Origin: a virus
Length of the DNA stretch: 36,202 bases
Direction: 5' to 3' (one strand)
Virus record (IMG/VR): IMGVR_UViG_3300031703_000023
Span: 1-36,202 of that record
Part shown: in pieces, positions 24,294-36,083 of the stretch
How positions within the stretch are numbered: position 1 is the first letter of the stretch
Layout: the number at the start of each line of letters is the position of its first letter
Translations under genes and position numbers: made by a program
Notes under the pieces: model-generated
What the model saw: the letters and a program-made list of their open reading frames with translations, nothing else
What the model was told of the DNA's origin: nothing
The model's database searches: none

Positions 24294-24315
24294 TTTGTTT
24301 TTATTTTGTTTTTAG

Positions 24316-24347
24316 AGAGGTAGGTTATAAAGCTTACCTCTTTTTTT
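24316..24347 (+). terminator. Rho-independent terminator after M15-like gene
   Basis: AGAGGTAGG (24316-24324) pairs with CTTACCTCT (24333-24341), nine pairs with one G-U, followed by a run of T to 24347. It separates the M15-like gene from the early promoter that follows. Confidence 0.75.
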
Positions 24348-24355
24348 GCTTAATA

Positions 24356-24383
24356 TGTTAAAGAAATGTTAAATTTTGTTAAA
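24356..24383 (+). promoter_or_regulatory. Three phased TGTTAAA repeats, possible operator
   Basis: TGTTAAA occurs at 24356-24362, 24367-24373 and 24377-24383, so spacings are 11 and 10 bases, one helical turn each. An identical arrangement (11 and 10) occurs at 31881-31908 before another early promoter. The third repeat starts 33 bases before the -7 box here and 35 bases before it at 31.9 kb. A phased array of this kind typically binds a regulator. Confidence 0.55.
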
Positions 24384-24387
24384 GTAC

Positions 24388-24417
24388 TTTCACAATCCAA
24401 TTAAAAGACTATCTTTG
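24388..24417 (+). promoter_or_regulatory. Early promoter of the replication genes
   Basis: TATCTTTG (24410-24417) matches the TAnnTTTG -7 box. The -33 position has TTTC (24388-24391) in place of TTTG, 18 bases away, which is weaker than consensus and could require an activator. It would start transcription about 25 bases before the ATG at 24446. Confidence 0.6.
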
Positions 24418-24445
24418 TAGGGAACAAATTAAACAAATATAAATT

Positions 24446-24544
24446 ATGGAAGAATCAGATTGTTGTGGTGCTGAAAGATGGTACGAAACAGACCTTTGTA
24501 GTGATTGTAAAGAGCATACAGGGTTTAACGAAATAGAAGAATAA
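24446..24544 (+). CDS. Tiny Cys-rich protein
   Basis: The 32-residue frame starts MEESDCCGAERWYETDLCSD and has cysteines arranged CC...CxxC, which could hold one zinc ion. The rest is acidic (HTGFNEIEE). It is the first gene behind the early promoter, and its stop is two bases from the next ATG. Small zinc-ribbon proteins of this kind are frequent in early phage operons. The function is unknown. Confidence 0.5.
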   Translation: MEESDCCGAERWYETDLCSDCKEHTGFNEIEE

Positions 24545-24546
24545 TT

Positions 24547-24705
24547 ATGAATTTAAGCGAAGAGACTTGGAGTCAGTTAAAAGAGGAAATAGAAACCTCT
24601 GTTAGTAAAGACCCTAACATAACTGATGTTATAGTTAACTACCAACTAAAAGAAAATAATGGTACAAAAAACATTCTAACCTATAGTGTAAAAATAGAAG
24701 ATTAA
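24547..24705 (+). CDS. Small hypothetical early protein
   Basis: The 52-residue frame starts MNLSEETWSQLKEEIETSVS, continues DPNITDVIVNYQLKENNG, and ends with a strand (NILTYSVKIED). The helix-strand-strand layout suggests a small compact fold. It sits between two other tiny early genes with one- to two-base gaps. No family or motif is recognised. The regular spacing is the main support for it being expressed. Confidence 0.5.
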   Translation: MNLSEETWSQLKEEIETSVSKDPNITDVIVNYQLKENNGTKNILTYSVKIED

Positions 24706-24706
24706 T

Positions 24707-24880
24707 ATGAAAGACTTAGTAGACTATAAGAATTACAGAATAGATGCTTTACAGAAAAAAGTATTTGAGTTAGAGCAAAAGACATCAACACTAGAGACTT
24801 ACATATTCGAGTTGACAGATAAGGATTGCCCAGAGGAATATAAAAACATAGTAAAGAACGAATTATTAAAAACAGAGTAA
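24707..24880 (+). CDS. Small coiled-coil early protein
   Basis: The 57-residue frame starts MKDLVDYKNYRIDALQKKVF and forms one long heptad-like helix (LEQKTSTLETYIFELTD) with a shorter C-terminal helix (EEYKNIVKNELLKTE). It likely dimerises. It precedes the ERF gene by three bases. A helper or regulatory role in recombination would be a guess from position only. No homologue comes to mind. Confidence 0.5.
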   Translation: MKDLVDYKNYRIDALQKKVFELEQKTSTLETYIFELTDKDCPEEYKNIVKNELLKTE

Positions 24881-24883
24881 ATT

Positions 24884-25441
24884 ATGACAATTTTAGAAAA
24901 ATTACAAGAGATTCAAACAACCTTAAAGGTTACCAAGAATCAAACAAATGCTTTTGGTAAGTACAAGTATCGTTCAGCAGAAGACATCTTAGAAGCGCTA
25001 AAACCTCTTGAAGATAGATACAAGGTAGTGTTTAAGATTACAGACACATTAGAAGAGGTTGCTGGACACGTTTACGTAAACTCAGAGGCTAAGATAATTG
25101 ATACAGAATCTATAGACAGAGAGAGTTCAGTATCTTCTTTCGCACAAGCTATTATAGACTTTACCGCAAAGGGTATGCAAATGCCACAGAGAACAGGTGC
25201 AGCAAGTAGTTATGCTAAGAAGTATGCTTTAGGTAACTTGTTGTTAATAGATGATAATAAAGATAGTGATGCTACCAACACACACGGTAAAACGACTCAA
25301 ACAGTAGTTAAGCCAATATTAAAGATAGGTACTCCTGAATTTAATAAAGTATCTGAGTTCATTGCTAAAGGAGGAGAGATGAGCAAGGTAAAGCTAAAGT
25401 ATGAGCTTCCATTAAATGTAGAGAAAGCATTAAAATTTTAA
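24884..25441 (+). CDS. erf: ERF-family single-strand annealing protein
   Basis: The 185-residue protein shows the ERF superfamily pattern. The N-terminal helix ILEKLQEIQTTLKVTKNQTN is followed by KYKYRSAEDILEALKPL (~27-43), a beta region with KVVFKITDTLEEVAGHVYV, and then the signature TGAASSYAKKYALGNLLLID near 104-123. An acidic run (DNKDSD) follows. ERF proteins anneal complementary single strands and, in phages such as P22, promote circularisation and recombination of linear DNA. The C-terminal ~50 residues are divergent. It is followed by a ParB-like gene and an SSB-like gene, a typical recombination cluster. Confidence 0.75.
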   Translation: MTILEKLQEIQTTLKVTKNQTNAFGKYKYRSAEDILEALKPLEDRYKVVFKITDTLEEVAGHVYVNSEAKIIDTESIDRESSVSSFAQAIIDFTAKGMQMPQRTGAASSYAKKYALGNLLLIDDNKDSDATNTHGKTTQTVVKPILKIGTPEFNKVSEFIAKGGEMSKVKLKYELPLNVEKALKF

Positions 25442-25467
25442 TAAGTAACAAATAAAAACAAAATAAA

Positions 25468-26349
25468 ATGAGAACACAAATTGAACAAGTATTTACTGGT
25501 ACAAGGCAATCAGTCAGAAAAACAAGCATTTCGGTTGAACTAGTTAAAGTTACTCCTTCGTTAGCTGAAAACTATTTAAAATTCAATCCTATTAACAGAA
25601 AGGTTAGTCTGAAGAATGTAAATTTCCTAGCTAAACAAATGATAGAAGGTTTATTTATAGAAAATGGAGAAAGTATAGTATTTGATAAAAATAACATACT
25701 TAGAGATGGTCAACACAGACTGATGGCAATAATCAAATCAAGCAAGTCTTATTACATACCTGTCGTTAAAGGAGTTAGTAGTAATAGTATGGCAACCTAT
25801 GATACAGGTAAGAACAGAAGTGCATCAGATGTTTTATCTATAGAAGGGTTTAAAAGCTCCTCAACGGTTTCCGCTTTAATAAAGCAGATAGATAAATATT
25901 GCAAAAGGAGTAGTAAGAGTGCATTTAATGGTTCAACAAATAGAGTAGAAGCATTATCTAACCAGCAGGTACTAGATAACTGTAAAGATAATTACGATTG
26001 GTTGATTGGAATAGTAAATAATTCAGCTAATATTTACAGTAAATGCAACTTAAAAACCCTAAGTGTAACTAATATATCTTTAATAGCTTATATTGTTGGA
26101 GGGGAAAACCCTAGTAAAGAGGTTTATTCTTTTATAAAGCATATTATTGGAGTTTCAAGAACGGAGGAAACAGCTACAAGCTACCTATACAGTAAGCTTT
26201 ACAACTCTAAAACAAACAGCGAGCCATTAAATTTTTATTGGATATTAGGAATGTCGATAAAAGCATGGAACTACTACTCGGAAGGAAACCCTTCTGTTAG
26301 GTACTATAAATTCCAAACAAATCAAGAATTACCAAAAATTAATCAATAA
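25468..26349 (+). CDS. ParB/Srx-like domain protein
   Basis: The 293-residue protein contains VTPSLAENYLKFNPINRKVS and NVNFLAKQMIEGLFIENGES, then FDKNNILRDGQHRLMAIIKS near 73-92. The DGQHRL block is the hallmark of the ParB/sulfiredoxin-like fold, here in a form widespread in phages. Later residues are helical (SALIKQIDKYC, IAYIVGGENPSKEVYSFIKH). In chromosome partition proteins this fold binds CTP, in sulfiredoxin ATP, and some phage members act as nucleases. Activity here is unknown. Context between ERF and the SSB-like gene suggests DNA metabolism or regulation. Confidence 0.65.
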   Translation: MRTQIEQVFTGTRQSVRKTSISVELVKVTPSLAENYLKFNPINRKVSLKNVNFLAKQMIEGLFIENGESIVFDKNNILRDGQHRLMAIIKSSKSYYIPVVKGVSSNSMATYDTGKNRSASDVLSIEGFKSSSTVSALIKQIDKYCKRSSKSAFNGSTNRVEALSNQQVLDNCKDNYDWLIGIVNNSANIYSKCNLKTLSVTNISLIAYIVGGENPSKEVYSFIKHIIGVSRTEETATSYLYSKLYNSKTNSEPLNFYWILGMSIKAWNYYSEGNPSVRYYKFQTNQELPKINQ

Positions 26350-26369
26350 TAACAATTAAATCAGAAATT

Positions 26370-26702
26370 ATGAGTAATCAATTAACAGGAACAATTAAAT
26401 TAATCGGAGAAAAGCAAACATTTGACTCTGGATTCCAAAAAGTAGAATTTGTATTAACAACTCTTGACGAGAAGTACCCGCAAGATGTTAAATTTGAGAT
26501 TGTACAAGACAAGGTAGACGACTTCTTAAAGTACAATAAAGTAGGAGCTTCTGTAGACGTAGATTTCAATGTTAGAGGTAACGAATACAAAGGAAAGTAT
26601 TATGTTAGTCTTTCAGCTTGGAAGGTGTTTAAATCGGATGCTAACAAACCTGCAACGGACATTGGTGTTCCGCAAGAGGAGTTGTCGGACTTACCATTTT
26701 AA
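26370..26702 (+). CDS. SSB-like OB-fold protein (DUF3127-like)
   Basis: The 110-residue protein has an OB-fold pattern: LTGTIKLIGEKQTFDSGFQK, VEFVLTTLDEKYPQDVKFEI, and VDVDFNVRGNEYKGKYYVSL. Its C-terminus ends PQEELSDLPF. Bacterial SSB proteins end in an acidic tip followed by PF (DDDIPF), which recruits replication partners, and this end fits that rule well. It resembles DUF3127 proteins, which I recall as short OB-fold proteins in Bacteroidota. It would coat single-stranded DNA during phage replication. A terminator follows directly. Confidence 0.7.
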   Translation: MSNQLTGTIKLIGEKQTFDSGFQKVEFVLTTLDEKYPQDVKFEIVQDKVDDFLKYNKVGASVDVDFNVRGNEYKGKYYVSLSAWKVFKSDANKPATDIGVPQEELSDLPF

Positions 26703-26708
26703 TTAATC

Positions 26709-26737
26709 AGGGAGGTTTAATAGCCTCCCTTTTTTTA
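26709..26737 (+). terminator. Rho-independent terminator after SSB-like gene
   Basis: AGGGAGG (26709-26715) pairs perfectly with CCTCCCT (26724-26730) around an eight-base loop. A run of T follows to 26737. It ends the transcript begun at the early promoter near 24.4 kb, or attenuates readthrough to the ATPase gene. Confidence 0.8.
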
Positions 26738-26765
26738 TCTATTAAAAACAACAAAAACAAAACAA

Positions 26766-27620
26766 ATGACAGAAGAAGAATTACAAGCACAGAATGACCA
26801 CTTAATGTATATGCAATCCATAGAAGAGGAATGTAATATAGATATAAATAAAAAGATAGAGCATCCTCCTGTAGCTATTAGCTATAATACTAATGAAGTT
26901 AATACAAAGAACGGTGTTAAGAGTTACCCTACCGCTATGTGTACCTATGGTAACTTCAGTTTTATACAAGCTCCTCCTAAATCAATGAAGACATTCTTTG
27001 TTAGTTTATTAGGTTCAGCATTTTGCAATCCTAAAGGCAATCACACTAAAGGTATGAACTCTTTTAGAAATAACAAGCACTTTGTACACTTTGATACAGA
27101 ACAAGGCGAATGGCACTCACAAAGGGTATTTAAAAGAATACAATGGATGAATAAAGGATTAAACTTAGACTTCTATCACACCTTTGCATTGAGAAAGATA
27201 AGTTACAATAGTAGAATAGACTTTATAGAGTACTACTTAGACTGTATGAGAGAAGAAGGTAAAGAGATTGGCTTAGTTGTTATTGATGGTGTTGCTGATT
27301 TAGTTAGTGATGCAAACAACTTAGAAGAGTCTTCAGCTATAGTTCAAAAAATAATGACATGGACCTCTGTCTATAATTGCCATATAGTAACTGTAATTCA
27401 TAGTAACTTTGGTTCAGATAAGCCTACAGGACATTTAGGTAGCTTCTTAGAGAAGAAGGCAGAGACTCAAATACAATTAGAGAGAGATGAGAATAAATTC
27501 GGCTGTATAACCGTATCTTGTAAAAGGAGCAGGAATACACCATTTGATTCATTTGACTTTAAATTAGATGGAGAAGGAATGCCTACAGTGGTTAATGCTG
27601 AAGACCTTAATAGTTATTAA
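26766..27620 (+). CDS. RecA-fold replicative ATPase, RepA/helicase-like
   Basis: The 284-residue protein has a RecA-fold ATPase core. Walker A lies at about 69-76 as APPKSMKT instead of GxxxxGKT, and Walker B at 170-174 (LVVID). Between them FVHFDTEQGEW resembles the substrate-contacting strand of DnaB/RepA-like proteins. Further on, HIVTVIHSNFG and the block GHLGSFLEKKAETQIQLERD match the sensor strand and L2-like region of AAA_25/RepA hexameric helicases. It may unwind DNA or load host proteins at the origin. The degenerate P-loop, with Lys and Thr kept, is a known variant type in Bacteroidota phages as far as I recall. No primase domain is attached. Confidence 0.65.
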   Translation: MTEEELQAQNDHLMYMQSIEEECNIDINKKIEHPPVAISYNTNEVNTKNGVKSYPTAMCTYGNFSFIQAPPKSMKTFFVSLLGSAFCNPKGNHTKGMNSFRNNKHFVHFDTEQGEWHSQRVFKRIQWMNKGLNLDFYHTFALRKISYNSRIDFIEYYLDCMREEGKEIGLVVIDGVADLVSDANNLEESSAIVQKIMTWTSVYNCHIVTVIHSNFGSDKPTGHLGSFLEKKAETQIQLERDENKFGCITVSCKRSRNTPFDSFDFKLDGEGMPTVVNAEDLNSY

Positions 27621-27645
27621 CAATATGTATAATATAGTCTAATTT

Positions 27646-27664
27646 TAGTTAACTTGTTAGTATG
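27646..27664 (+). promoter_or_regulatory. Diverged AGTTAAC...AGTATG motif at a start codon
   Basis: TAGTTAACTTGTTAGTATG overlaps the ATG at 27662. It matches the late-type motif with three extra bases in the spacer and, like the copies at 14704 and 34248, ends in the start codon. A second related sequence, TAGTTATTAACAATATG, lies at 27611-27627. Confidence 0.3.
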
Positions 27665-28384
27665 GAAGCAAGTAAAGATTTTAGACCAAGATTAAAAGGA
27701 AATATTAAGTTAGCATACGAGAACTTAATAAAGGTAGAAGATAAGATATTAGTAATAGGTGACCTACACGAACCTTTTTGCTTAGATGGTTACCTAAGCC
27801 ATTGTAAAGAGATTTACGCTAAACATAACTGTAATAAAGTTATTTTTATAGGAGATGTTATTGACAACCATTATAGCTCTTTTCATGACCCTGACCCTGA
27901 CGGTATGGGAGGTGGAGATGAGCTATCTTTGGCTATAAGTAAGTTATCTAAATGGTACAAGGCGTTTCCAACTGCGGAAGTTTGTATTGGAAATCACGAT
28001 AGAATAGTTACTCGTAAAGCATTTGCTTCAGGTGTTCCAAAGAGATGGATTAGAGAAATGGCAGATGTGTTAGAAACTCCTAATTGGGTTTATGATACAC
28101 GTTTTGTACATAATGGTGTCCAATATATTCACGGAGAATCTGGTAGAGCTACTAAGAAAGCTAAGGATGATATGATGAGTACTGTTCAAGGACATAGACA
28201 TACAGAGATGTTTACTGAATTTGTTGTAGGTGCTAATTACAAGGTTTTTGGTTGTGCTGTTGGTTGTGGCATAGATAATACTACTTACGCTATGGCTTAT
28301 GGTAAGCACTTTAAAAAACCTGCTATTGGTGTTGCTGTTGTGTTTGGTGGAGAGTATGCTATTAACGAACCTATGAATTTATAA
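27662..28384 (+). CDS. Calcineurin-like metallophosphoesterase
   Basis: The 240-residue protein carries all metallophosphoesterase motifs: GDLHEPF (Asp34, His36), GDVIDNH (Asp65), GNHDR (Asn111, His112), IHGESG (His157), and QGHRHT (His178, His180). These residues bind two metal ions and the phosphate. Family members cut phosphodiesters in nucleotides, RNA or DNA (Mre11-like), or dephosphorylate proteins. The family is common in phage replication modules, where the natural substrate is rarely known. Loop DPDPDGMGGGDELS after motif II is characteristic of the phage subgroup. It overlaps the following gene by one base. Confidence 0.75.
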   Translation: MEASKDFRPRLKGNIKLAYENLIKVEDKILVIGDLHEPFCLDGYLSHCKEIYAKHNCNKVIFIGDVIDNHYSSFHDPDPDGMGGGDELSLAISKLSKWYKAFPTAEVCIGNHDRIVTRKAFASGVPKRWIREMADVLETPNWVYDTRFVHNGVQYIHGESGRATKKAKDDMMSTVQGHRHTEMFTEFVVGANYKVFGCAVGCGIDNTTYAMAYGKHFKKPAIGVAVVFGGEYAINEPMNL

Positions 28385-28728
28385 TGAACTATAACAATGA
28401 TTTTAAATACGACTTAAAGGTTGGTCAAGTCAAAGAAGAGGAGCTTGGCAAGATATTTAGCTCATCAACTATTGAAGTTAAGCACGACTTAAAGGCTTTA
28501 TCTACAGGCAATGTTTATGTAGAGTACTTTAGTAGAGGAAAGAAGTCTGGAATATCTACATCACAATCAGATTATTATTGCTTTGCTTTTGGTGATACTT
28601 TTCATTTAATAGCTACAAAGAACTTAAAAGACAAATGTAGAAAATACATAGGGACTTCAAGGGATAAAGTAGGTGGTGACTTAAACACCTCTAAAGGCAT
28701 ATTACTTCCATTAAAAGAATTAATGTAA
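28384..28728 (+). CDS. PD-(D/E)XK-like nuclease candidate
   Basis: The 114-residue protein starts with YDLKVGQVKEEELGKIFSSS, followed by TIEVKHDLKALSTGNVYVEY. The ExK of TIEVKHD and the glutamate in VYVEYFSRGKKSGISTSQSD fit the PD-(D/E)XK nuclease fold. DYYCFAFGDTFHLIATKNL follows as the next strands. Phage members of this family are often structure-specific or Holliday-junction-type nucleases. The catalytic Asp is probably in KYDLKVGQ or further on, and I cannot fix it by eye. It lies directly before a RusA-like resolvase with a one-base overlap, which supports a role in processing replication intermediates. Confidence 0.55.
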   Translation: MNYNNDFKYDLKVGQVKEEELGKIFSSSTIEVKHDLKALSTGNVYVEYFSRGKKSGISTSQSDYYCFAFGDTFHLIATKNLKDKCRKYIGTSRDKVGGDLNTSKGILLPLKELM

Positions 28729-29123
28729 TGATACATGAGATAATTTCCCCAATGCACATAATTGTGCCAAGAAGAACAAAGAAAGATAGAAGAATAGCTC
28801 TTAACTTAAACATCTACAGAAACCTACACCACTCGGTTAACGGACAATCTAAGAAGATATACACAGAGCTGATGAGAGACCAATTAGAAGGACTTATTAT
28901 AAAGACTCCTGTAGAGATTACTTACAGAGTGTTTAAGCCAACCAAAAGGATTTTAGATAAGATGAATGTAATTAGCGTAGTTAGTAAGTTCTTGCTAGAT
29001 GCTATTACTGAGTACGGTTGCTGGGAAGATGATAATGATAACTTCGTTAAGACAGAGACCATATTACCTACAGAGATAGATAGAAAAAACCCAAGAGTAG
29101 AAATAATAATAAAAGAGATTTAA
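28728..29123 (+). CDS. RusA-like Holliday junction resolvase
   Basis: The 131-residue protein matches the RusA pattern. ISPMHIIVPRRTKKDRRIAL opens the protein, a helix NLHHSVNGQSKKIYTELMRD follows, then strands (VEITYRVFKPTKR). The conserved catalytic part is LDKMNVISVVSKFLLDAITE, followed by GCWEDDNDNF and a final strand (PRVEIIIKEI). In RusA three Asp residues bind the metal: one in the DxxN helix and two in the DD block. Here Asp77, and Asp101-Asp102 or the neighbouring Asp104, are in place. The enzyme cuts four-way junctions before packaging. It overlaps both neighbouring genes. Confidence 0.7.
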   Translation: MIHEIISPMHIIVPRRTKKDRRIALNLNIYRNLHHSVNGQSKKIYTELMRDQLEGLIIKTPVEITYRVFKPTKRILDKMNVISVVSKFLLDAITEYGCWEDDNDNFVKTETILPTEIDRKNPRVEIIIKEI

Positions 29124-29653
29124 TGTTAGAAAAATTAGCAGTACACCATACGTTGTGGATTAAGATGCTTGTAAATATGGGTTGTAATGTAGAGACCGCA
29201 AAAGACTTAGTACAAGATATGTACATAAGGTTGCATAACCTCGTTAAAGACCCTAAAAAGATAATGTATGGAGATGATGTAAACAGGTATTACGTGTGGA
29301 CTACATTAAGAAATATGTATTTCTCCCACCTAAGAAAATCAAACAAAAGTATATTTTATAGAATGTTAGAAAATGATGAGGTGGAGCAATTTGATTATAA
29401 TGATGTAGAAGATAACGCTTTTGAAACAATATCAGCTAAAATTGATGCTGTTATTTGCGAGTGGACAGTATATGACAAAAGATTATTTGAGCTATACTTT
29501 ATACAAGGGTTGTCTCTAAGAGCTATTTCAAGCGGTTCTAAGATAGGTTTGACATCAATACATAATTCCATACTAAATTATAAAGATATATTGAGAGAAC
29601 ATCTCTCAGAAGATTTAATAGATTATTTCAACCAAGATTTTGATAAGATATGA
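29123..29653 (+). CDS. Sigma-70-family-like transcription factor
   Basis: The 176-residue protein has the two-domain layout of ECF-type sigma factors. A region 2-like segment, VETAKDLVQDMYIRLHNLVK (~23-42), continues to YYVWTTLRNMYFSHLRKSNK, resembling the DNA-melting helix. A linker of acidic residues follows. A region 4-like HTH, DKRLFELYFIQGLSLRAISS to SIHNSILNYKDILRE, lies near 130-165. Such proteins direct RNA polymerase to specific promoters, and phages use them for middle or late genes. Several late genes here lack the host-type TAnnTTTG box, so a late sigma factor would make sense. It is encoded inside the replication operon with overlapping ends (ATGA into the next gene). Confidence 0.65.
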   Translation: MLEKLAVHHTLWIKMLVNMGCNVETAKDLVQDMYIRLHNLVKDPKKIMYGDDVNRYYVWTTLRNMYFSHLRKSNKSIFYRMLENDEVEQFDYNDVEDNAFETISAKIDAVICEWTVYDKRLFELYFIQGLSLRAISSGSKIGLTSIHNSILNYKDILREHLSEDLIDYFNQDFDKI

Positions 29654-30138
29654 AAAAAGATAGTTACTACATAGAGTTAGAAAAAGAAGGTTACTATGAT
29701 ACCGTAGATAAGCGTTCTAAAGATTACAGAGAGTATAAGAAATGGATAAGTAAGTCTGATGGCTATAATTCTTTAAAGGATAATGTAGAGAGTCAGTCTA
29801 AAGGCTTAGGAGACACTATTGCAAAGATTACTAAAGCTACAGGAATAGAGAAAATAGTTAAGCTAATTGCTGGTGATGATTGTGGATGTGATGAGAGAAA
29901 GGAGATATTAAATAAGAAGTTTAAGTTTAAAAGTGTTAATTGTGTCTCTGAAGAGGATTACATCTACTTAACTAAATTCTTTAGCACAAAACCCTCTAAG
30001 GTTACTAACGCTCAGCAAGTTCAATTGAATAGAATACATAATTATATTTTTGGAACTAGAAAATCAGCGTCCTCTTGTGTTAGTTGTGTCGCAAAAACTG
30101 TATTAAATCTTAAAAAATACTTGCAGGTTTATAATTAG
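29650..30138 (+). CDS. Cys-rich conserved hypothetical protein
   Basis: The 162-residue product starts MKKDSYYIELEKEGYYDTVD and has a conserved-looking middle, GLGDTIAKITKATGIEKIVK followed by LIAGDDCGCDERKEIL (CGC pair). A second Cys site lies late in FGTRKSASSCVSCVAKTVLN. The spacing of C-x-C and C-x-x-C suggests a metal site, zinc or otherwise. I recall a related uncharacterised protein in many Bacteroidota phages next to the sigma-like gene. The overlap (ATGA) with the sigma-like gene suggests translational coupling and possibly a joint function. No activity can be named. Confidence 0.6.
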   Translation: MKKDSYYIELEKEGYYDTVDKRSKDYREYKKWISKSDGYNSLKDNVESQSKGLGDTIAKITKATGIEKIVKLIAGDDCGCDERKEILNKKFKFKSVNCVSEEDYIYLTKFFSTKPSKVTNAQQVQLNRIHNYIFGTRKSASSCVSCVAKTVLNLKKYLQVYN

Positions 30139-30151
30139 TTTTGTAGTTTTG
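30121..30151 (+). promoter_or_regulatory. Bacteroidota-type promoter before the flap endonuclease genes
   Basis: TTG (30121-30123) is followed by 20 bases and TAGTTTTG (30144-30151), fitting TTG-N17-23-TAnnTTTG. Its -33 part lies inside the end of the preceding gene. It would start transcription about 20 bases before the ATG at 30175. Confidence 0.6.
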
Positions 30152-30174
30152 CTTTAAATAAATAATATAAGCAC

Positions 30175-30348
30175 ATGAAACTAACACTTAGACAAAAACA
30201 AACATCATTTTGGAACAATAATATTAATCCAATAACAGGATGGGGAGAGAGTAGGAAGCAAGAAGATTACAGGTTTAAAACAGAACAAAAACTTATTAAA
30301 GAAAGGGCTATTGCCAAAAGAGATAGGTTATCAAAAAAAGAAAGTTAG
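30175..30348 (+). CDS. Small basic hypothetical protein
   Basis: The 57-residue frame starts MKLTLRQKQTSFWNNNINPI, then TGWGESRKQEDYRFKTEQKL and a basic C-terminal helix (AIAKRDRLSKKES). With a dozen Lys/Arg residues it may bind DNA or RNA. It is the first gene after the promoter at 30121-30151 and ends two bases before the flap endonuclease start. I recognise no family. Its position makes a replication-linked or regulatory role possible. Confidence 0.55.
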   Translation: MKLTLRQKQTSFWNNNINPITGWGESRKQEDYRFKTEQKLIKERAIAKRDRLSKKES

Positions 30349-30350
30349 GT

Positions 30351-31091
30351 ATGAAGATTATATTTGATGCTGATAGTTTAATTTACGCTTCTTGCTTTAA
30401 AAATAAAGAAGATAGAGTAAGTAAGGAAGATATGTACGAAACTGATATCACAAAGGCTTTTGATAAGTTTTCAAGTAGTTTCGGTAAGTTGATAGAACAC
30501 TTAGATGAAATAGTTCTGGTAGAAGAGGTTGTGTTTTGTAACGGCTCTAAGAATAACTTCAGAAACACCATTACAGACACTTATAAAGCTAATAGGACAG
30601 GCGAAAGACCTTTAATATTATCTGAACTACATGATGTTGTAAAGATGTCTTATAATTCATTTTATGGGGATGGAGTGGAGACTGATGATGTTGTAGCCAC
30701 TTTATGGGCAGAAGAAGTTAAAAAGAATGGTGTAGATTCTGTTGCTATAATGTCATTAGATAAAGACTATAAGCAGTTTCCTTGCTGGTTTTTTGACTAC
30801 CACTACAAAAGAAGGGAGCTTTATAAAATAACCCAAGAAGAAGCGGATAATAACTTCTACTCACAGATGATTATAGGCGATACTGCTGACAATATAAACT
30901 ACTGCAAAGGTTTTGGTAAGTCTTATGCATTAAAGCTTCTTAAAGAGTCTAAAAATGAATACTCCTTGCTAAATAAAACATACAGGCTTTATAGTCAAAT
31001 ACACGGAAGTGATGCAAAAGATATGTTTAATGAAGCTAGGTCATTACTAAAACTAAAAACAGATTGCTATGAGCAAATTAGACGAGGATAA
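30351..31091 (+). CDS. Phage flap endonuclease / 5'-3' exonuclease
   Basis: The 246-residue protein has the T5/T4 flap endonuclease pattern. The N-terminal FDADSL (Asp6, Asp8) is followed by a region ending YKANRTGERP (Lys79-Arg82, the substrate-contacting part). GVETDDVVAT (Glu110, Asp112, Asp113) is followed by MSLDKDYKQF (Asp137, Asp139), and finally IGDTADNI with Asp177 and Asp180, then GFGKSYALKLL, the helix-hairpin-helix-like piece. These carboxylates bind two metal ions. The enzyme removes RNA primers or flaps from lagging strands, or degrades DNA. Its 3' end overlaps the next gene by 23 bases. Confidence 0.75.
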   Translation: MKIIFDADSLIYASCFKNKEDRVSKEDMYETDITKAFDKFSSSFGKLIEHLDEIVLVEEVVFCNGSKNNFRNTITDTYKANRTGERPLILSELHDVVKMSYNSFYGDGVETDDVVATLWAEEVKKNGVDSVAIMSLDKDYKQFPCWFFDYHYKRRELYKITQEEADNNFYSQMIIGDTADNINYCKGFGKSYALKLLKESKNEYSLLNKTYRLYSQIHGSDAKDMFNEARSLLKLKTDCYEQIRRG

Positions 31092-31338
31092 TTATATTAT
31101 AGAGCTGTATTTTGGCAACGCTTTGTTAGAGATACAAGACGGATTGCCTAAAGAGATATTGCAAGAGACCTTAGAATATTATGAAGAGCAAGAACTTTAT
31201 TTAGCTTGTGCAGGTATAAAAAAGGCTTTAGATTGGTATGAAACACAAATGTTTACTAAGACTATGGTAAAAATAAATGAAATAATTAAGGATGATGATT
31301 TAAGCGACTTAAATTATAGTTCTTGGGATGAAGATTAA
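31069..31338 (+). CDS. Acidic hypothetical protein
   Basis: The 89-residue product starts MSKLDEDNYIIELYFGNALL and is strongly acidic. Helices QDGLPKEILQETLEYYEEQE and IKKALDWYETQMF follow, and the end is DDDLSDLNYSSWDED. It overlaps the endonuclease gene by 23 bases, so translation is probably coupled. Small acidic proteins can mimic DNA or bind host proteins, but this is only a possibility. No homology is recognised. Confidence 0.6.
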   Translation: MSKLDEDNYIIELYFGNALLEIQDGLPKEILQETLEYYEEQELYLACAGIKKALDWYETQMFTKTMVKINEIIKDDDLSDLNYSSWDED

Positions 31339-31356
31339 CAATTAAATAAAACAAAT

Positions 31357-31812
31357 ATGAACAGTTTAGAGAAATTAATGGAGATTACAGAAGGTTTTAA
31401 TGAAGAGATGGCTGAAGTTGAAAGAGAGAGAAGGATGGATATAATAGCGCAGAATGGAAATACAGGTCATCATTACGATTTGTCAAACGCTTCTAGCAAT
31501 ACAAAGCCTGTCTATAAGGTTACAGGAGCAGAGGAAAGAAAAGGTATGCCTGTTTACTCTGGAGTACTTACTTATTTTCCTGATGCATTGAAAGAAGTAT
31601 CTAAATGTAGCTTAGCAGGACAAAAGCAACATAATCACGGAGATAAGCTATATTGGGATAAGAACAAGAGTACAGATAATGCAGATGCTTTGGTCAGGCA
31701 CTTAATAGACCATAATAAGAATCCAATAGATGATGATGGTATATTACACCTTGCAAAAGTAGCTTGGAGAGCATTAGCTACATTACAAATATATTTAGAC
31801 AGTAATAAATAA
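31357..31812 (+). CDS. dATP/dGTP diphosphohydrolase-like protein (DUF5664)
   Basis: The 151-residue protein carries a pattern I recognise from phage DUF5664 proteins annotated as dATP/dGTP diphosphohydrolases. The block VYSGVLTYFPDALKEVSKCS is followed by AGQKQHNHGDKLYWDKNKST, then NADALVRHLIDHNKNPIDDD and ILHLAKVAWRALATLQIYLD. The many His and Asp residues in these blocks probably form the metal site of an all-helical hydrolase. Such enzymes can adjust dNTP pools or, in some phages, remove dATP or dGTP for DNA with altered bases. Activity here is inferred. The gene is followed by a terminator. Confidence 0.65.
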   Translation: MNSLEKLMEITEGFNEEMAEVERERRMDIIAQNGNTGHHYDLSNASSNTKPVYKVTGAEERKGMPVYSGVLTYFPDALKEVSKCSLAGQKQHNHGDKLYWDKNKSTDNADALVRHLIDHNKNPIDDDGILHLAKVAWRALATLQIYLDSNK

Positions 31813-31832
31813 GACACTATTAGAACACTTAT

Positions 31833-31862
31833 AAAGGATGGCAGTTAGCTATCCTTTTTTTT
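31833..31862 (+). terminator. Rho-independent terminator after DUF5664 gene
   Basis: AAAGGATGGC (31833-31842) pairs with GCTATCCTTT (31848-31857), ten positions with one G-U, over a five-base loop AGTTA. A T run follows to 31862. It ends the endonuclease-nucleotidase transcript. Confidence 0.8.
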
Positions 31863-31880
31863 GCTTTAATTTAATTAAAA

Positions 31881-31908
31881 TGTTAAAGTTTTGTTAAAAT
31901 CTGTTAAT
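31881..31908 (+). promoter_or_regulatory. Three phased TGTTAA(A/T) repeats, possible operator
   Basis: TGTTAAA lies at 31881-31887 and 31892-31898, and TGTTAAT at 31902-31908. Spacings of 11 and 10 bases match the array at 24356-24383. The shared geometry beside two early promoters indicates a common binding protein rather than chance. Confidence 0.55.
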
Positions 31909-31914
31909 AGATAG

Positions 31915-31944
31915 TTGATAAACAAAAAAGACATTGTATCTTTG
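31915..31944 (+). promoter_or_regulatory. Early promoter of the small-gene cassette region
   Basis: TTG (31915-31917), exactly 19 bases, then TATCTTTG (31937-31944). This is a full match to TTG-N19-TAnnTTTG. It should start transcription about 20 bases before the ATG at 31968. Confidence 0.75.
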
Positions 31945-31967: not shown

Positions 31968-32219
31968 ATGGCAAGATTATTTTACACAGAAAATGGATAT
32001 AACAGAACAATAGTTAACTTTTACGAGTTAGTTAAAGAAACTGAATTTTTCTTAACGTTAGTTCAGGTTGGAAAGTATAATTATGATAATGGAGTAACAC
32101 CAAATACAACTGAATTAAAGGGAGATAATTTTAGAGTCAAAAAAACAAATTCACTTTATAGAATTTGGAACGGACAGAATTTAAAAGAGAATAATAATTA
32201 TACATACACAGGGGCATAA
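31968..32219 (+). CDS. Small hypothetical protein, first gene after early promoter
   Basis: The 83-residue product starts MARLFYTENGYNRTIVNFYE and contains LVKETEFFLTLVQVGKYNYD, then FRVKKTNSLYRIWNGQNLKE. It ends NNYTYTGA. Likely beta strands and a Tyr/Asn-rich makeup suggest a small compact beta domain. No family is recognised. Being first behind a strong consensus promoter, it is probably made in large amounts early. A host-takeover role would fit, but nothing in the sequence shows it. Confidence 0.6.
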   Translation: MARLFYTENGYNRTIVNFYELVKETEFFLTLVQVGKYNYDNGVTPNTTELKGDNFRVKKTNSLYRIWNGQNLKENNNYTYTGA

Positions 32220-32259
32220 AAAACAAAGGGTTGTAAAAACCCCATTAAAAACAAAAAAG

Positions 32260-32349
32260 ATGAAAAAAAGTAAACAAGACCAAGTATTATCAAACAAGGT
32301 GCACGCAGTAGTAATGTGCGTAATAGTAATAATAACAATAAATATATAA
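32260..32349 (+). CDS. Tiny possible membrane peptide
   Basis: The 29-residue frame starts MKKSKQDQVLSNKVHAVVMC and ends with a hydrophobic segment VIVIITINI. It has a basic N-terminus and one possible membrane span, and ends two bases before the next ATG. Peptides like this are easy to find by chance in AT-rich DNA, so confidence is low. The arrangement after the 83-residue gene, with a small hairpin (GGGTT/AACCC at about 32228-32242) upstream, would suit a coupled gene. Confidence 0.35.
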   Translation: MKKSKQDQVLSNKVHAVVMCVIVIITINI

Positions 32350-32351
32350 TT

Positions 32352-32468
32352 ATGAAGAAAGTATTAGGATATTTTTTAGAAGGTATTGTTTATTTTGTAA
32401 TGACTGGATTAGTTGTTTATATGATACTAATGTTTTTATCAATGATTATCAAATTATTTAAAAACTAA
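32352..32468 (+). CDS. Small single-span membrane protein
   Basis: The 38-residue frame starts MKKVLGYFLEGIVYFVMTGL and is mainly one hydrophobic helix (VYFVMTGLVVYMILMFLSMI) with basic ends (MKK and KLFKN). It should sit in the inner membrane. It starts two bases after the preceding small frame and ends two bases before the 104-residue gene, so the spacing is that of an operon. Function is unknown. Superinfection control or membrane perturbation are possible roles. Confidence 0.5.
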   Translation: MKKVLGYFLEGIVYFVMTGLVVYMILMFLSMIIKLFKN

Positions 32469-32470
32469 TT

Positions 32471-32785
32471 ATGAAAGAAGAAATTAAATTAGCTATTCAA
32501 TCAATCCAACCATCTTACGAAACAACAGGTAGTTATCGTTATCCTTTGCCTAATGAGGTAACTTTGTATTCTGATAGTAGTGCTTATTTAATAGATTTAA
32601 ACCTTAAAGAAGGTGTCTTAAATGCGGAATTATGGCAAAGTGAGGAATGGGTTAAATTAAATGAACAAGATGTTTATTATATTTACACTTACTTAAATGG
32701 TTTGCTAGAAGAAGAAATAGAGTTAACTAAAAGGCATTACGAAGAAGAAAGATACGAAGAACAAACAACTTACTTTATAAGGTAA
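32471..32785 (+). CDS. Acidic hypothetical protein in cassette region
   Basis: The 104-residue product starts MKEEIKLAIQSIQPSYETTG and has two parts. A beta-like part carries NEVTLYSDSSAYLIDLNLKE and LNAELWQSEEWVKLNEQDVY. A C-terminal charged helix follows (LEEEIELTKRHYEEERYEEQ). Its stop codon lies inside the repeated intercistronic element that begins TAACG. I recall similar proteins as uncharacterised accessory genes in Flavobacteriia. Function is unknown. Confidence 0.6.
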   Translation: MKEEIKLAIQSIQPSYETTGSYRYPLPNEVTLYSDSSAYLIDLNLKEGVLNAELWQSEEWVKLNEQDVYYIYTYLNGLLEEEIELTKRHYEEERYEEQTTYFIR

Positions 32786-32808
32786 CGGTAGGTATAAGGT
32801 TAGTTGCG
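32783..32808 (+). repeat. Intercistronic element, copy A
   Basis: TAACG contains the stop of the preceding gene. Four bases, GTATAAG, four bases and GTTGCG follow. The same layout (AACG, N4, GTRTAAG, N4, GTTGCG) occurs at 33142-33167. Conserved blocks with variable spacers of constant length suggest a recombination or protein-binding site rather than a coding repeat. Confidence 0.5.
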
Positions 32809-32847
32809 TTAATAATGACAAACCAAAATAAATAAACAAAAAATAAA

Positions 32848-33126
32848 ATGACACAAAATCAAATAAACCACTATAATAGTTTAATGAAGCAAGATGCTGA
32901 GCACAAAGAAAAAGTTATAGAAATACTAGAAACAGATTTTGGATGGAGAAACATCGAGCAAAGAGATGAATTAGTTATTGAAATGATGCAAGATACTATA
33001 GAAGCAACAAAAAAAGCATTTTCTTTAACCGATGTTGTTGCAAGTGTTTACGACAAAAAATGCAAAAAGTTTAATGAGGAAGTAGAGCGTATTAAAAAAG
33101 ATGGAGGTAGTAGTGGGTATTGGTGA
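32848..33126 (+). CDS. Helical hypothetical protein in cassette region
   Basis: The 92-residue product starts MTQNQINHYNSLMKQDAEHK and is almost entirely charged helix, with EKVIEILETDFGWRNIEQRD, MMQDTIEATKKAFSLTDVVA and a basic end (KKCKKFNEEVERIKKDGGSS). It is probably cytoplasmic. It is preceded by 62 non-coding bases that contain intercistronic element A, and followed after 15 bases by element B. No function is recognised. Confidence 0.6.
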   Translation: MTQNQINHYNSLMKQDAEHKEKVIEILETDFGWRNIEQRDELVIEMMQDTIEATKKAFSLTDVVASVYDKKCKKFNEEVERIKKDGGSSGYW

Positions 33127-33141
33127 GTAAATATTTGTTGC

Positions 33142-33167
33142 CAACGACCAGTGTAAGAACTGTTGCG
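33142..33167 (+). repeat. Intercistronic element, copy B
   Basis: CAACG, four bases, GTGTAAG, four bases, GTTGCG. The layout and spacing are identical to copy A at 32783-32808. Just upstream GTTGCCAAC forms a small inverted repeat with it, and downstream GATAG/CTATC could form a hairpin. It lies 15 bases after the stop of the 92-residue gene. Confidence 0.5.
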
Positions 33168-33260
33168 GATAGATATGCACAAACTATCGGATAAAAACAG
33201 AATTAATTAAATAGAAAATAAACATTAACCAAGCAGTAAATAGCAATAGATTATACACAT

Positions 33261-33576
33261 TGTTACCTGCTTTTAAAATTACGGAAATGACAGTAAAAGA
33301 CTTAATTGAAAAACTAAAAGAATTACCGCAGGATGCAAAAGTATTTCATTTGTGGGATGGCGAGCCAAGAACATCTATAAATGTAGTTTATGAAACAAAA
33401 AATGGTGCGGTAATGACCGCTGATTATGGACAAGTTTGTTATTCATCTTCTGCAAGACCAAAAGATGCACCAAATAGCGAAGAAGATAGATATTGGCAAA
33501 CACAAAAAGACCCAAGAGGATATACAGAAGAAGATGAATGGGATTACTAACGTAGTAATTTTTATTGCAGGTAACA
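33261..33576. repeat. 22-bp inverted repeats bracketing one gene
   Basis: The left arm (33261-33282, starts TGTTACCTGC) and the right arm (33555-33576, ends GCAGGTAACA) are reverse complements at 19 of 22 positions. They enclose the 87-residue gene at 33287-33550 almost exactly. The left arm ends four bases before its ATG and the right arm begins four bases after its stop. This looks like a mobile gene cassette or a transcription-unit-sized stem. No transposase is encoded. Confidence 0.55.
33287..33550 (+). CDS. Small hypothetical protein inside inverted repeats
   Basis: I use the ATG at 33287, giving 87 residues starting MTVKDLIEKLKELPQDAKVF. An upstream TTG at 33260 would extend the frame through the inverted repeat and is less likely. 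The N-terminal MTVKDLIEKLK.LPQDA.V block is widespread among small accessory proteins of Bacteroidota and their phages, as I recall, with no known activity. It continues SINVVYETKNGAVMTADYGQ and an acidic end (YTEEDEWDY). Its stop codon is part of TAACG, as at copy A. Confidence 0.6.
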   Translation: MTVKDLIEKLKELPQDAKVFHLWDGEPRTSINVVYETKNGAVMTADYGQVCYSSSARPKDAPNSEEDRYWQTQKDPRGYTEEDEWDY

Positions 33577-33586
33577 CCAAGATAAG

Positions 33587-33637
33587 AAAGCGTTTCAATG
33601 CTTTTTATCAACTGTTGACCAACGTTTTAATGTTGGT
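33587..33637 (+). terminator. Two small hairpins, weak terminator candidate
   Basis: AAAGC (33587-33591) pairs with GCTTT (33600-33604) and is followed by a short T run. ACCAAC (33618-33623) pairs with GTTGGT (33632-33637) around an eight-base loop. Neither has a long T tract. One of them may separate the cassette region from the DnaA-like gene. Confidence 0.4.
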
Positions 33638-33660
33638 AATTAATAATAAATAAATAAATT

Positions 33661-34224
33661 ATGGCGTACATGAAAGAAGATTACTGCACAAAGTCAGCAG
33701 ACAAATTATTAAATAAGTTTAAAGAATTAACAAGATTCAATATTACATCAACATCAAGAACTCCTGAAAACTCATTTCTAAGAGCCTTATCTTACAAGAT
33801 ACTTGTTGATTTGAATTACATGAATGACAGGCAGATTTCAGAGTATTTCGAATCTAAAGGTATTAAAAGACAGAGGAGTTCAATATATCACGCATTAAGT
33901 AAAATCGACTCCTATTACTTGAACTACTCAGATTTTAGGGATATTTATGATATTTACTTTGAAGATAAGGCTGAAGAAAGCAAGGTTAATAGTGAAAAAA
34001 GAGCCAAGAAGCTTAAAGCTATTGAAAATAAAGTTGTAAGAAGTAGTCCTAAAGCTATTCCTGACCTACTAAAGACCCTTGTTGATGGCATACCAGACGA
34101 AAGAAGGCAAGAAGTGTATGAAATGCTTAATCTAAGAGTTAAGTCGTGGGAGTGGAAGTCTAAAAATGAGTATGAGATAATAGAAGGTGATAACGGAGTA
34201 GGTAATAACACTTGGAATCAATAA
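33661..34224 (+). CDS. DnaA-domain-IV-like HTH protein
   Basis: The 187-residue protein has an N-terminal segment with ENSFLRALSYKILVDLNYMN (~36-55), then DRQISEYFESKGIKRQRSSI and YHALSKIDSYY. This order, with RSS-YHALSKID in the recognition position, resembles the DnaA C-terminal HTH. Similar domains are found in phage proteins next to terminase genes. The second half is charged and helical (AEESKVNSEKRAKKLKAIEN, ERRQEVYEMLNLRVKSWEWK). It may bind the origin, a regulatory region or the packaging site. It precedes the small terminase candidate by 36 bases. Confidence 0.55.
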   Translation: MAYMKEDYCTKSADKLLNKFKELTRFNITSTSRTPENSFLRALSYKILVDLNYMNDRQISEYFESKGIKRQRSSIYHALSKIDSYYLNYSDFRDIYDIYFEDKAEESKVNSEKRAKKLKAIENKVVRSSPKAIPDLLKTLVDGIPDERRQEVYEMLNLRVKSWEWKSKNEYEIIEGDNGVGNNTWNQ

Positions 34225-34247
34225 CTAAAAACAGAACACCTTAATTT

Positions 34248-34264
34248 AAGTTACCATAGTATGA
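34248..34264 (+). promoter_or_regulatory. AGTTACCATAGTATG motif at the small terminase start
   Basis: AAGTTACCATAGTATGA overlaps the ATG at 34261. It is almost identical to the copy at 14704-14720 (AGTTATCATAGTATG), which also ends in a start codon. Either both genes share a translation or operator element, or the motif class has more than one role. Confidence 0.35.
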
Positions 34265-34653
34265 GTAAATCAGAAGAAATAAAACCCACAGACGGAAGAA
34301 AAGGTAATTCAAGAAAGAAGTCTATACCTATCTTAGCTGCACCTGATAATGAAAGGTCCAATAAACCAGCAATGAATACGGCTAAGAAAAGCAGGAAGAA
34401 GCAGTACGCTAAGAAAGCTATTAAAAATATATTTGGTAGTGAGGTTAATGCTTTTGAGAGCTTAGCTAAGAAGGCAGAAGAAGGTAGTTATAATCACATG
34501 AAGCTACTGTTAGATTTTGCCTATGGTGACGAAAGTGAGGGCAATGTAGCTAGGGTTCAGGCTCCTGTAATAAACTTCTTTGGAGATAGCCCTGAAGGAA
34601 AAGCAATAAAAGAAAAAATAATAGACGTAACACCAAAAGAAGATGATAAATAA
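34261..34653 (+). CDS. terS: Probable terminase small subunit
   Basis: The 130-residue protein starts MSKSEEIKPTDGRKGNSRKK, a basic and disordered region that continues to about residue 45. A helix RKKQYAKKAIKNIFGSEVNA follows, then FESLAKKAEEGSYNHMKLLL with DFAYGDESEGNVARVQAPVI, ending in an acidic tail (DVTPKEDDK). The pattern ...A.EG...H.KLLLD..YG is often seen in small terminases or their relatives in Bacteroidota phages. It lies immediately upstream of the large subunit, the usual arrangement. It should bind the packaging site and hand DNA to TerL. Sequence evidence alone is moderate. Confidence 0.6.
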   Translation: MSKSEEIKPTDGRKGNSRKKSIPILAAPDNERSNKPAMNTAKKSRKKQYAKKAIKNIFGSEVNAFESLAKKAEEGSYNHMKLLLDFAYGDESEGNVARVQAPVINFFGDSPEGKAIKEKIIDVTPKEDDK

Positions 34654-34822
34654 CTTTAATATTACTACAATAATTATTGATTACATACCAAAAAATAAGC
34701 TAAACAAAGTGACTGCAAATAATATTTGCTGGTGGACTACCTGTATAGTAGGGTTAGAATTAGATAACCTAGCAGATGTTTACGTTTTTTTAGATAGAAA
34801 ATTAGACTTAATAGATGAGTAG
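34643..34822 (+). CDS. Small overlapping protein between terminase genes
   Basis: The 59-residue frame starts MINNFNITTIIIDYIPKNKL and continues NKVTANNICWWTTCIVGLEL, then DNLADVYVFLDRKLDLIDE. It overlaps the end of the small terminase gene by 11 bases and the start of the large terminase by 8. This precise fit and the uninterrupted 59 codons suggest it is translated. The hydrophobic centre (WWTTCIVGLEL) may be a short strand or weak membrane segment. No family is recognised. Confidence 0.5.
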   Translation: MINNFNITTIIIDYIPKNKLNKVTANNICWWTTCIVGLELDNLADVYVFLDRKLDLIDE

Positions 34823-36029
34823 CAACATAGATATCCACAAAAAATACATACCTATTTTCAAAAACGAGAGTAGGTATTTCGTTGTTACGGGCGGAAGAGG
34901 GTCAGGAAAGTCTTTTGGTATAAATGTATTTCTACTTAATCTAACCTATCAAAAAGGACATAAGATACTTTTCTCTCGTTACACAATGATATCAGCACAT
35001 ACCTCTATTATACCTGAATTTATTGAGAAGATTAACTTAATGGGTGTTCACGAAGATTTTAGGATTACTAAGGATGAGATAATGAATCTAAAGACAGGTA
35101 GTAGTATCATCTTTAAAGGTATTAGAACCTCTTCAGGTAATCAAACGGCAGCATTAAAGTCTCTTAACGGTATTACAACATTTGTTGTAGATGAAGCAGA
35201 GGAATTGGTTGATGAAGGTGTGTTTGATAAAATTGATTTCTCTATACGTTCTTTGCTTAAGCAGAACAGAGTTATACTTATCTTAAATCCAACCACAAAA
35301 GAGCATTGGATATACCAAAGATTCTTCCAAAATGAGAATGTACTTCCTGCATCTAATACAGAAAAAGGAGATACAACTTATGTACATACAACATATAAAG
35401 ATAATAAGAAGAATTTATCTCAATCATTTCTACAGAGGATATTTGAAATGAAGCGTAAAAGACCTGACAAGTATCAACACCAAATATTAGGTGGTTGGTT
35501 AGCTAAAGCAGAGGGTACTATTATAAGAAAATGGAGGGTTGGAGACTTTATTCCTACAGAACTCACTTGTTATGGTCAGGATTACGGATTCTCAGCCGAT
35601 TTAACGACACTTGTGAAGATTTCTATAGATAAGCACTCAAGAAAGGTTTGGGTTAAGGAAATCTACGGAAAAGCCAATCTAACGACATCTGACATAGCTA
35701 CTAGAAACAGAGCTGAGTGTGGTATGGATTTAATTATATCAGACAATTCAGAACCCAGACTTCTTAACGAGCTTAAAACATTGGGTATTAATATAAAACC
35801 AACCATAAAAAAGAAGGGTAGTATATTATCAGGTATTGCTCTTATGCAAGATTATGAGATAATAGTAGATAGAGGTTCTCATGGGATTATAAGAGAGCTT
35901 AACAATTATGTATGGAAAGATAAAGGTGAAGTACCTATTGATAAGTTTAATCACTTTATAGATGCTATTAGGTATGGGATGATGTATTTAATACAAGGGA
36001 AGAACTCAGGTGTTTATACAATAAGGTAG
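34815..36029 (+). CDS. terL: Terminase large subunit
   Basis: The 404-residue protein matches the Terminase_3/PBSX-like large subunit. Walker A GGRGSGKS is at residues 26-33, and Walker B TFVVDEAEE near 122-130. A C-terminal RNase H-fold nuclease has acidic residues in GQDYGFSAD (Asp256), IISDNSEP (Asp310) and HFIDAIRYG (Asp383). It packages DNA into proheads and cuts it. Length is normal for the family. It lies at the far right of the window, separated from the portal gene by most of the genome in linear order. A terminator and tandem repeats follow. The start overlaps the preceding small frame. Confidence 0.85.
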   Translation: MSSNIDIHKKYIPIFKNESRYFVVTGGRGSGKSFGINVFLLNLTYQKGHKILFSRYTMISAHTSIIPEFIEKINLMGVHEDFRITKDEIMNLKTGSSIIFKGIRTSSGNQTAALKSLNGITTFVVDEAEELVDEGVFDKIDFSIRSLLKQNRVILILNPTTKEHWIYQRFFQNENVLPASNTEKGDTTYVHTTYKDNKKNLSQSFLQRIFEMKRKRPDKYQHQILGGWLAKAEGTIIRKWRVGDFIPTELTCYGQDYGFSADLTTLVKISIDKHSRKVWVKEIYGKANLTTSDIATRNRAECGMDLIISDNSEPRLLNELKTLGINIKPTIKKKGSILSGIALMQDYEIIVDRGSHGIIRELNNYVWKDKGEVPIDKFNHFIDAIRYGMMYLIQGKNSGVYTIR

Positions 36030-36051
36030 AACGTTTAATAATATAGGTAAG

Positions 36052-36079
36052 AGACCTGATAATTAAGTTTATCGGGTCT
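36052..36079 (+). terminator. Hairpin after large terminase gene
   Basis: AGACCTGATAA (36052-36062) pairs with TTATCGGGTCT (36069-36079), eleven pairs with one G-U, around a six-base loop. A TCTTCTTG stretch follows rather than a clean T run. It is probably the terminator of the terminase operon. Confidence 0.65.
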
Positions 36080-36083
36080 TCTT

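Follow-up and report, generated by a model that had tools for sequence, protein, structure and literature searches.

Triple TGTTAA arrays before two phage operons match host rprX promoters and are candidate RprY-type binding sites

Two operons of a phage, analysed here as a window of 36,202 nucleotides, are each preceded by three head-to-tail TGTTAA(A/T) units at a nearly constant distance from a Bacteroidota-type promoter. Many phages carry this array with a fixed geometry, which the promoters of the host rprX operon share. Judging from these sequence comparisons, the arrays are probably bound by a response regulator of the host, of RprY type (OmpR/PhoB family), which the phage would use as an activator. 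We infer RprY as the protein, activation as its mode of action, and the timing of that action in infection.

In the mechanism that we propose, an RprY-type regulator, the partner of the sensor kinase RprX, would bind the three half-sites head to tail on one face of the helix. From a position immediately 5' of the -33 element, in a standard -33/-7 promoter of the Bacteroidota type, it would help host RNA polymerase start the two phage operons, and phage transcription would thereby be tied to the state reported by the RprX sensor.

Two arrays at the heads of phage operons

Array 1 (24356-24383, + strand) consists of three direct TGTTAAA units (24356-24362, 24367-24373 and 24377-24383), and array 2 (31881-31908, +) of TGTTAAA (31881-31887), TGTTAAA (31892-31898) and TGTTAAT (31902-31908), in both cases with spacings of 11 and 10. 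Each array is followed by a -7 box, TATCTTTG, at 24410-24417 (+, a gap of 27 from array 1) and at 31937-31944 (+, a gap of 29 from array 2), and the third unit starts 33 bp and 35 bp before its box, respectively. An earlier note on this DNA had described these two triples, their spacing and their -7 boxes, and all of its positions were confirmed. Both promoters have the fixed spacing of the Bacteroidota -33/-7 promoter, TTG plus TAnnTTTG: 22 bp 5' of the -7 box, promoter 2 carries TTG (31915-31917, +) and promoter 1 carries TTT (24388-24390, +), an imperfect -33 element.

A terminator-like hairpin, absent from the earlier note, lies 12-23 bp before both arrays, one at 24314-24343 (+), with a 13-bp stem and a T tail, ending the upstream transcription unit, and the other at 31833-31857 (+). 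The first start codon follows the -7 box by 23-28 bp at both promoters. Each array thus stands where a transcription unit begins.

The first genes of operon 1 (24446-26702, +) comprise small ORFs of 32, 52 and 57 aa and genes for an Erf-like annealing protein, a 293-aa protein (phrog_5931) and SSB, after which there is an internal terminator-like site (26709-26730). Operon 2 (31968-36029, +) holds small ORFs without assigned function and then the terminase large subunit gene (34815-36029), with a terminator-like site behind it (36051-36080). The earlier note took both promoters to be early, a timing that is at most putative: operon 2 extends as far as the terminase gene. We call the phage flavobacterial because its terminase matches that of Nonlabens phage P12024L at 50% and its Erf protein that of Maribacter phage Panino at 59%; at the DNA level, positions 1-25000 of the window gave no direct match to annotated phages. 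The phage also encodes a phosphoadenosine phosphosulfate reductase-like protein (1150-2016, - strand), a dATP/dGTP diphosphohydrolase-like protein (31357-31812, +) and a protein that weakly resembles sigma-70 region 2 (29123-29653; Pfam below cut-off, phrog_1740 at 8e-5). Near the terminase of P12024L, gp35 is annotated with a sigma-70 region 2 domain.

Single TGTTAAW words are close to background in the window (49 seen, 36 expected). Triples with spacings of 8-14 were observed twice, and random sequence, which the earlier note had named as a possible source of such arrays, yielded none in 900 simulated windows (Markov orders 1, 3 and 5, with 300 windows per order). The two arrays are also the only ones of their kind, as had been claimed: a search of the window for triples next to a TAnnTTTG box, with up to 5/18 mismatches allowed, returned no further case.

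A regulator encoded by the phage itself might read the arrays. Phages frequently have switch proteins of their own, several ORFs in the window are without a family match, and the weakly sigma-like protein could be counted in favour of this reading. However, the scanned ORFs of the window contained no response-regulator, ParB-, DnaA-, winged-helix or other DNA-binding regulator family, and a site with identical geometry stands at a host chromosomal operon, which makes a phage regulator improbable. The binders suggested earlier did not find support: a 166-residue basic protein was without a regulator match (the best being DUF7440, below cut-off), and neither a ParB-like nor a DnaA-like protein was found among the scanned ORFs, where 26766-27620 encodes an AAA_25 ATPase.

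Recurrence in other phages

An exact triple with a TAnnTTTG box 22-34 bp downstream is present in 83 viral contigs. Across 49 distinct viral sequences the gap from array to box was 27 (13 sequences), 28 (23) or 29 (12), with one outlier at 33; thus 48/49 cases fall at 27-29 although 22-34 was permitted. A set of 48 phage promoters has a -33 consensus of T.92 T.92 G.52, located 22 bp before the -7 box, and their first genes begin with 35 different six-residue prefixes. As the first genes differ, the element appears to travel with, or to evolve before, many genes.

In relatives fetched by protein only, the spacing of TGTTAA pairs peaks at 10, 11 and 21 bp, with no such peaks for control words; the word ATGTTA is the motif shifted by one and was not usable as a control. 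The strict triple with its box, with mismatches allowed, amounted to only 10 distinct cases among these relatives, so the trait is patchy. This is also indicated by Nonlabens phage P12024L, in which no array was found. The isolate Panino carries a direct pair at a gap of 27 (position 192, left end).

The host counterpart at rprX

A scan of 84,980 species for the triple and box returned only 45 stretches, mostly from Sphingobacteriales and Bacteroidales and with a gap of 27 in 34 of them; no perfect triple with box came from a named member of the Flavobacteriaceae. Most of the host stretches lie directly upstream of an operon of a histidine kinase and then an OmpR-type regulator. One such regulator (L283) scores 305.9 bits against the RprY model NF051850, compared with 160.5 for the next family. 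RprY is by far the best NCBIfam match, yet matches outside Bacteroidales-like genomes stay below the curated 370-bit cut-off. An RprY-like protein occurs in 122/149 sampled Bacteroidia genomes. Genomes that have the array hold about one each, even with one mismatch, and 295 Bacteroidia genomes gave 10 matches versus 0 for the reversed pattern.

To avoid circularity, rprX-type promoters were gathered via the RprY protein family alone and not via the motif; the sample covers the class Bacteroidia, evenly sampled without relatedness correction, with kinase start codons set by rule. A direct GTTAA pair at 10 or 11 bp, pointing to the gene, is found at 56/83 of these promoters, and 27/83 are without a perfect pair. 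As controls, the inverse complement gave 0/83 and reversed words 0-1/83. Other ORFs had the direct pair upstream in 15/383 cases, several of which are rprX-like kinases or rprY genes missed by the filter. Spacings between GTTAA words at rprX promoters peak at 10, 11, 20-21 and 31, and the gap from pair to box is 26-29 in 39/56, compared with 27-29 in phages and with 27 and 29 in the window. The window arrays thus match rprX promoters in repeat unit, orientation and spacing, and likewise in their distance to the -7 box, as is expected of RprY-regulated promoters. When 60 genomes were scanned for a direct pair with box, there were 36 matches versus 1 for the control, about 15 of them being rprX. 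Two rprX promoters, the only ones read that we take by protein type to be Flavobacteriaceae-like, carry 2-3 GTTAA units each.

Further arrays were seen in hosts. Five genomes (L289-L293) have triple arrays, TGTTAAACAATTGTTAAANCNTGTTAA, beside another gene and without a -7 box nearby. In L363 (G150), a triple array near 212221 of its contig precedes the gene of a CorA-like transporter, which lies some 4 kb away from rprXY, and rprX itself also carries a direct pair.

General UP elements offer another account of the arrays, which are AT-rich, phased at 10-11 bp and placed just upstream of a -33 element that follows directly. But UP elements would be expected at many strong host promoters, whereas a genome has about one triple, which in most cases stands at one particular operon. 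GTTAA is moreover kept at rprX in GC-rich genomes (L375, 65% GC), and the units are oriented (56 versus 0), so that we consider this account quite improbable. A different host transcription factor could also control both rprXY and the phage operons, in which case rprX would be among its targets and would not speak for autoregulation; the link to RprY is one of promoter association, and some rprX promoters are without the array. Repeat type and phasing are nevertheless those of OmpR-family regulators, and we regard such a factor as very unlikely. Operons of OmpR-family regulators are commonly autoregulated. That a single dedicated regulator serves both window arrays, as proposed earlier, is well supported by the conserved spacing and -7 distance in dozens of phages and by the site at a host operon, and RprY is the regulator that we favour.

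Inverted sites, helical phase and phosphate control

A second class of sites has the inverted unit TTAACA-N5-TTAACA, found in diverse Bacteroidota phage relatives with a gap to the -7 box of 21, 32 or 43 (for example L090:4609, L094:163, L099:8194 and L182:3672). TTAACA pairs in viral contigs show gap peaks at 20-21, 30-32 and 41-42 among the matches listed, and the control pair AATTGT shows one peak at 31 and is otherwise non-periodic, again among the matches listed; the two words were compared by their gap distributions alone. At the locus matching array 1, L090 and L094 have an inverted pair where the window has a direct triple. A single array is shared by rprX and a divergent gene in the hosts G001 and G025; its units are direct with respect to rprX and inverted, at gap 21, with respect to the other gene. 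Near-identical promoters at 4872 and 7994 of Bacteroides phage DAC19 (L768) each have, 41 bp before TACCTTTG, a TTAACA pair spaced by 10 bp.

Direct and inverted positions lie 5-6 bp apart, which is half a turn. Salmonella PhoP boxes are hexanucleotide direct repeats, (T/G)GTTTA at 11 bp, that stand in direct orientation at whole turns and in reverse orientation at half turns from -10 (PMC3335776). By comparison of positions, the inverted class appears to follow this half-turn rule. A phase relation of this kind would speak for a regulator that touches RNA polymerase, and so for activation rather than simple blocking. The arrays resemble the sites of PhoP, an OmpR-family activator, in half-site, 11-bp repeat and orientation/phase rule; unlike them, they would serve another regulator at a Bacteroidota -33/-7 promoter, with three half-sites and a site further upstream. 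The inverted pair at gap 21 may act differently from PhoP boxes, because that study saw no reverse PhoP box nearer than 24 nt (PMC3335776).

In host genomes, inverted pairs or sites precede pstS, PhoU-like and Na/Pi transporter genes, and also genes for other secreted proteins and for proteins that, from sequence type, are presumably DUF1573-like. The small secreted DUF1573-like proteins behind inverted pairs are candidate members of a shared regulon. At seven loci of the 60-genome scan (L682, L683, L688, L694, L696, L697 and L702), small secreted proteins are preceded by an inverted pair whose gap is 21 or 42.

These neighbours raise an alternative in which the arrays would be Pho boxes, and PhoB of the host would link transcription to phosphate starvation. 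Cyanophages offer a precedent, with genes controlled by host PhoBR (PMC10976474, citing Zeng and Chisholm 2012). PhoB is a sister OmpR-family regulator, and true pstS promoters in Bacteroidia have TTAAC repeats near 11 bp. Their orientation, however, is opposite to that of the arrays, with direct GTTAA pairs at 3/30 versus 56/83 for rprX, and the direct triple with a gap of 27-29 is seen at rprX and not at pst genes. For the arrays, PhoB is therefore unlikely. It may well apply to some of the inverted class, among whose phage sites there may be PhoB boxes. We favour RprY for the direct class and see PhoB as its chief competitor in part of the inverted one.

As with cyanophages and PhoBR, marine phage promoters here carry predicted sites for a response regulator of the OmpR family that belongs to the host. 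Cyanophages use PhoB and phosphate-responsive genes, whereas the site here is of RprY type, a strict direct triple at a fixed distance, and the window arrays precede a recombination operon and a terminase operon. RprX/RprY form a host operon in Porphyromonas gingivalis and Bacteroides, and its promoters across Bacteroidia carry the same array. In P. gingivalis, RprY has been connected with responses to sodium and to stress (PMC3646045). Our search of the open literature, subscription papers lying outside its scope, found neither an RprY binding motif nor a link between RprY and phages.

We tentatively suggest, at somewhat less than even confidence, that phages of Bacteroidota have repeatedly put a copy of the site by which host rprX regulates itself ahead of operons of their own. 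The copies would fall into two orientation classes that follow a whole-turn and half-turn rule, and infection would be gated by a host signal of envelope or sodium stress; the GTTAA array would then be a so far undescribed RprY box. The phage could gain either an infection-triggered stress signal or a reading of growth state, both being possible.

The geometry rules make the RprY reading directly testable, and the isolate Panino offers a named host, Maribacter halichondriae, and a direct pair at gap 27. If the reading is true, RprY, a widespread regulator, would have a class-wide candidate binding site, and phages would be seen to place blocks of core genes, and not just accessory metabolic ones, under a two-component system of the host.
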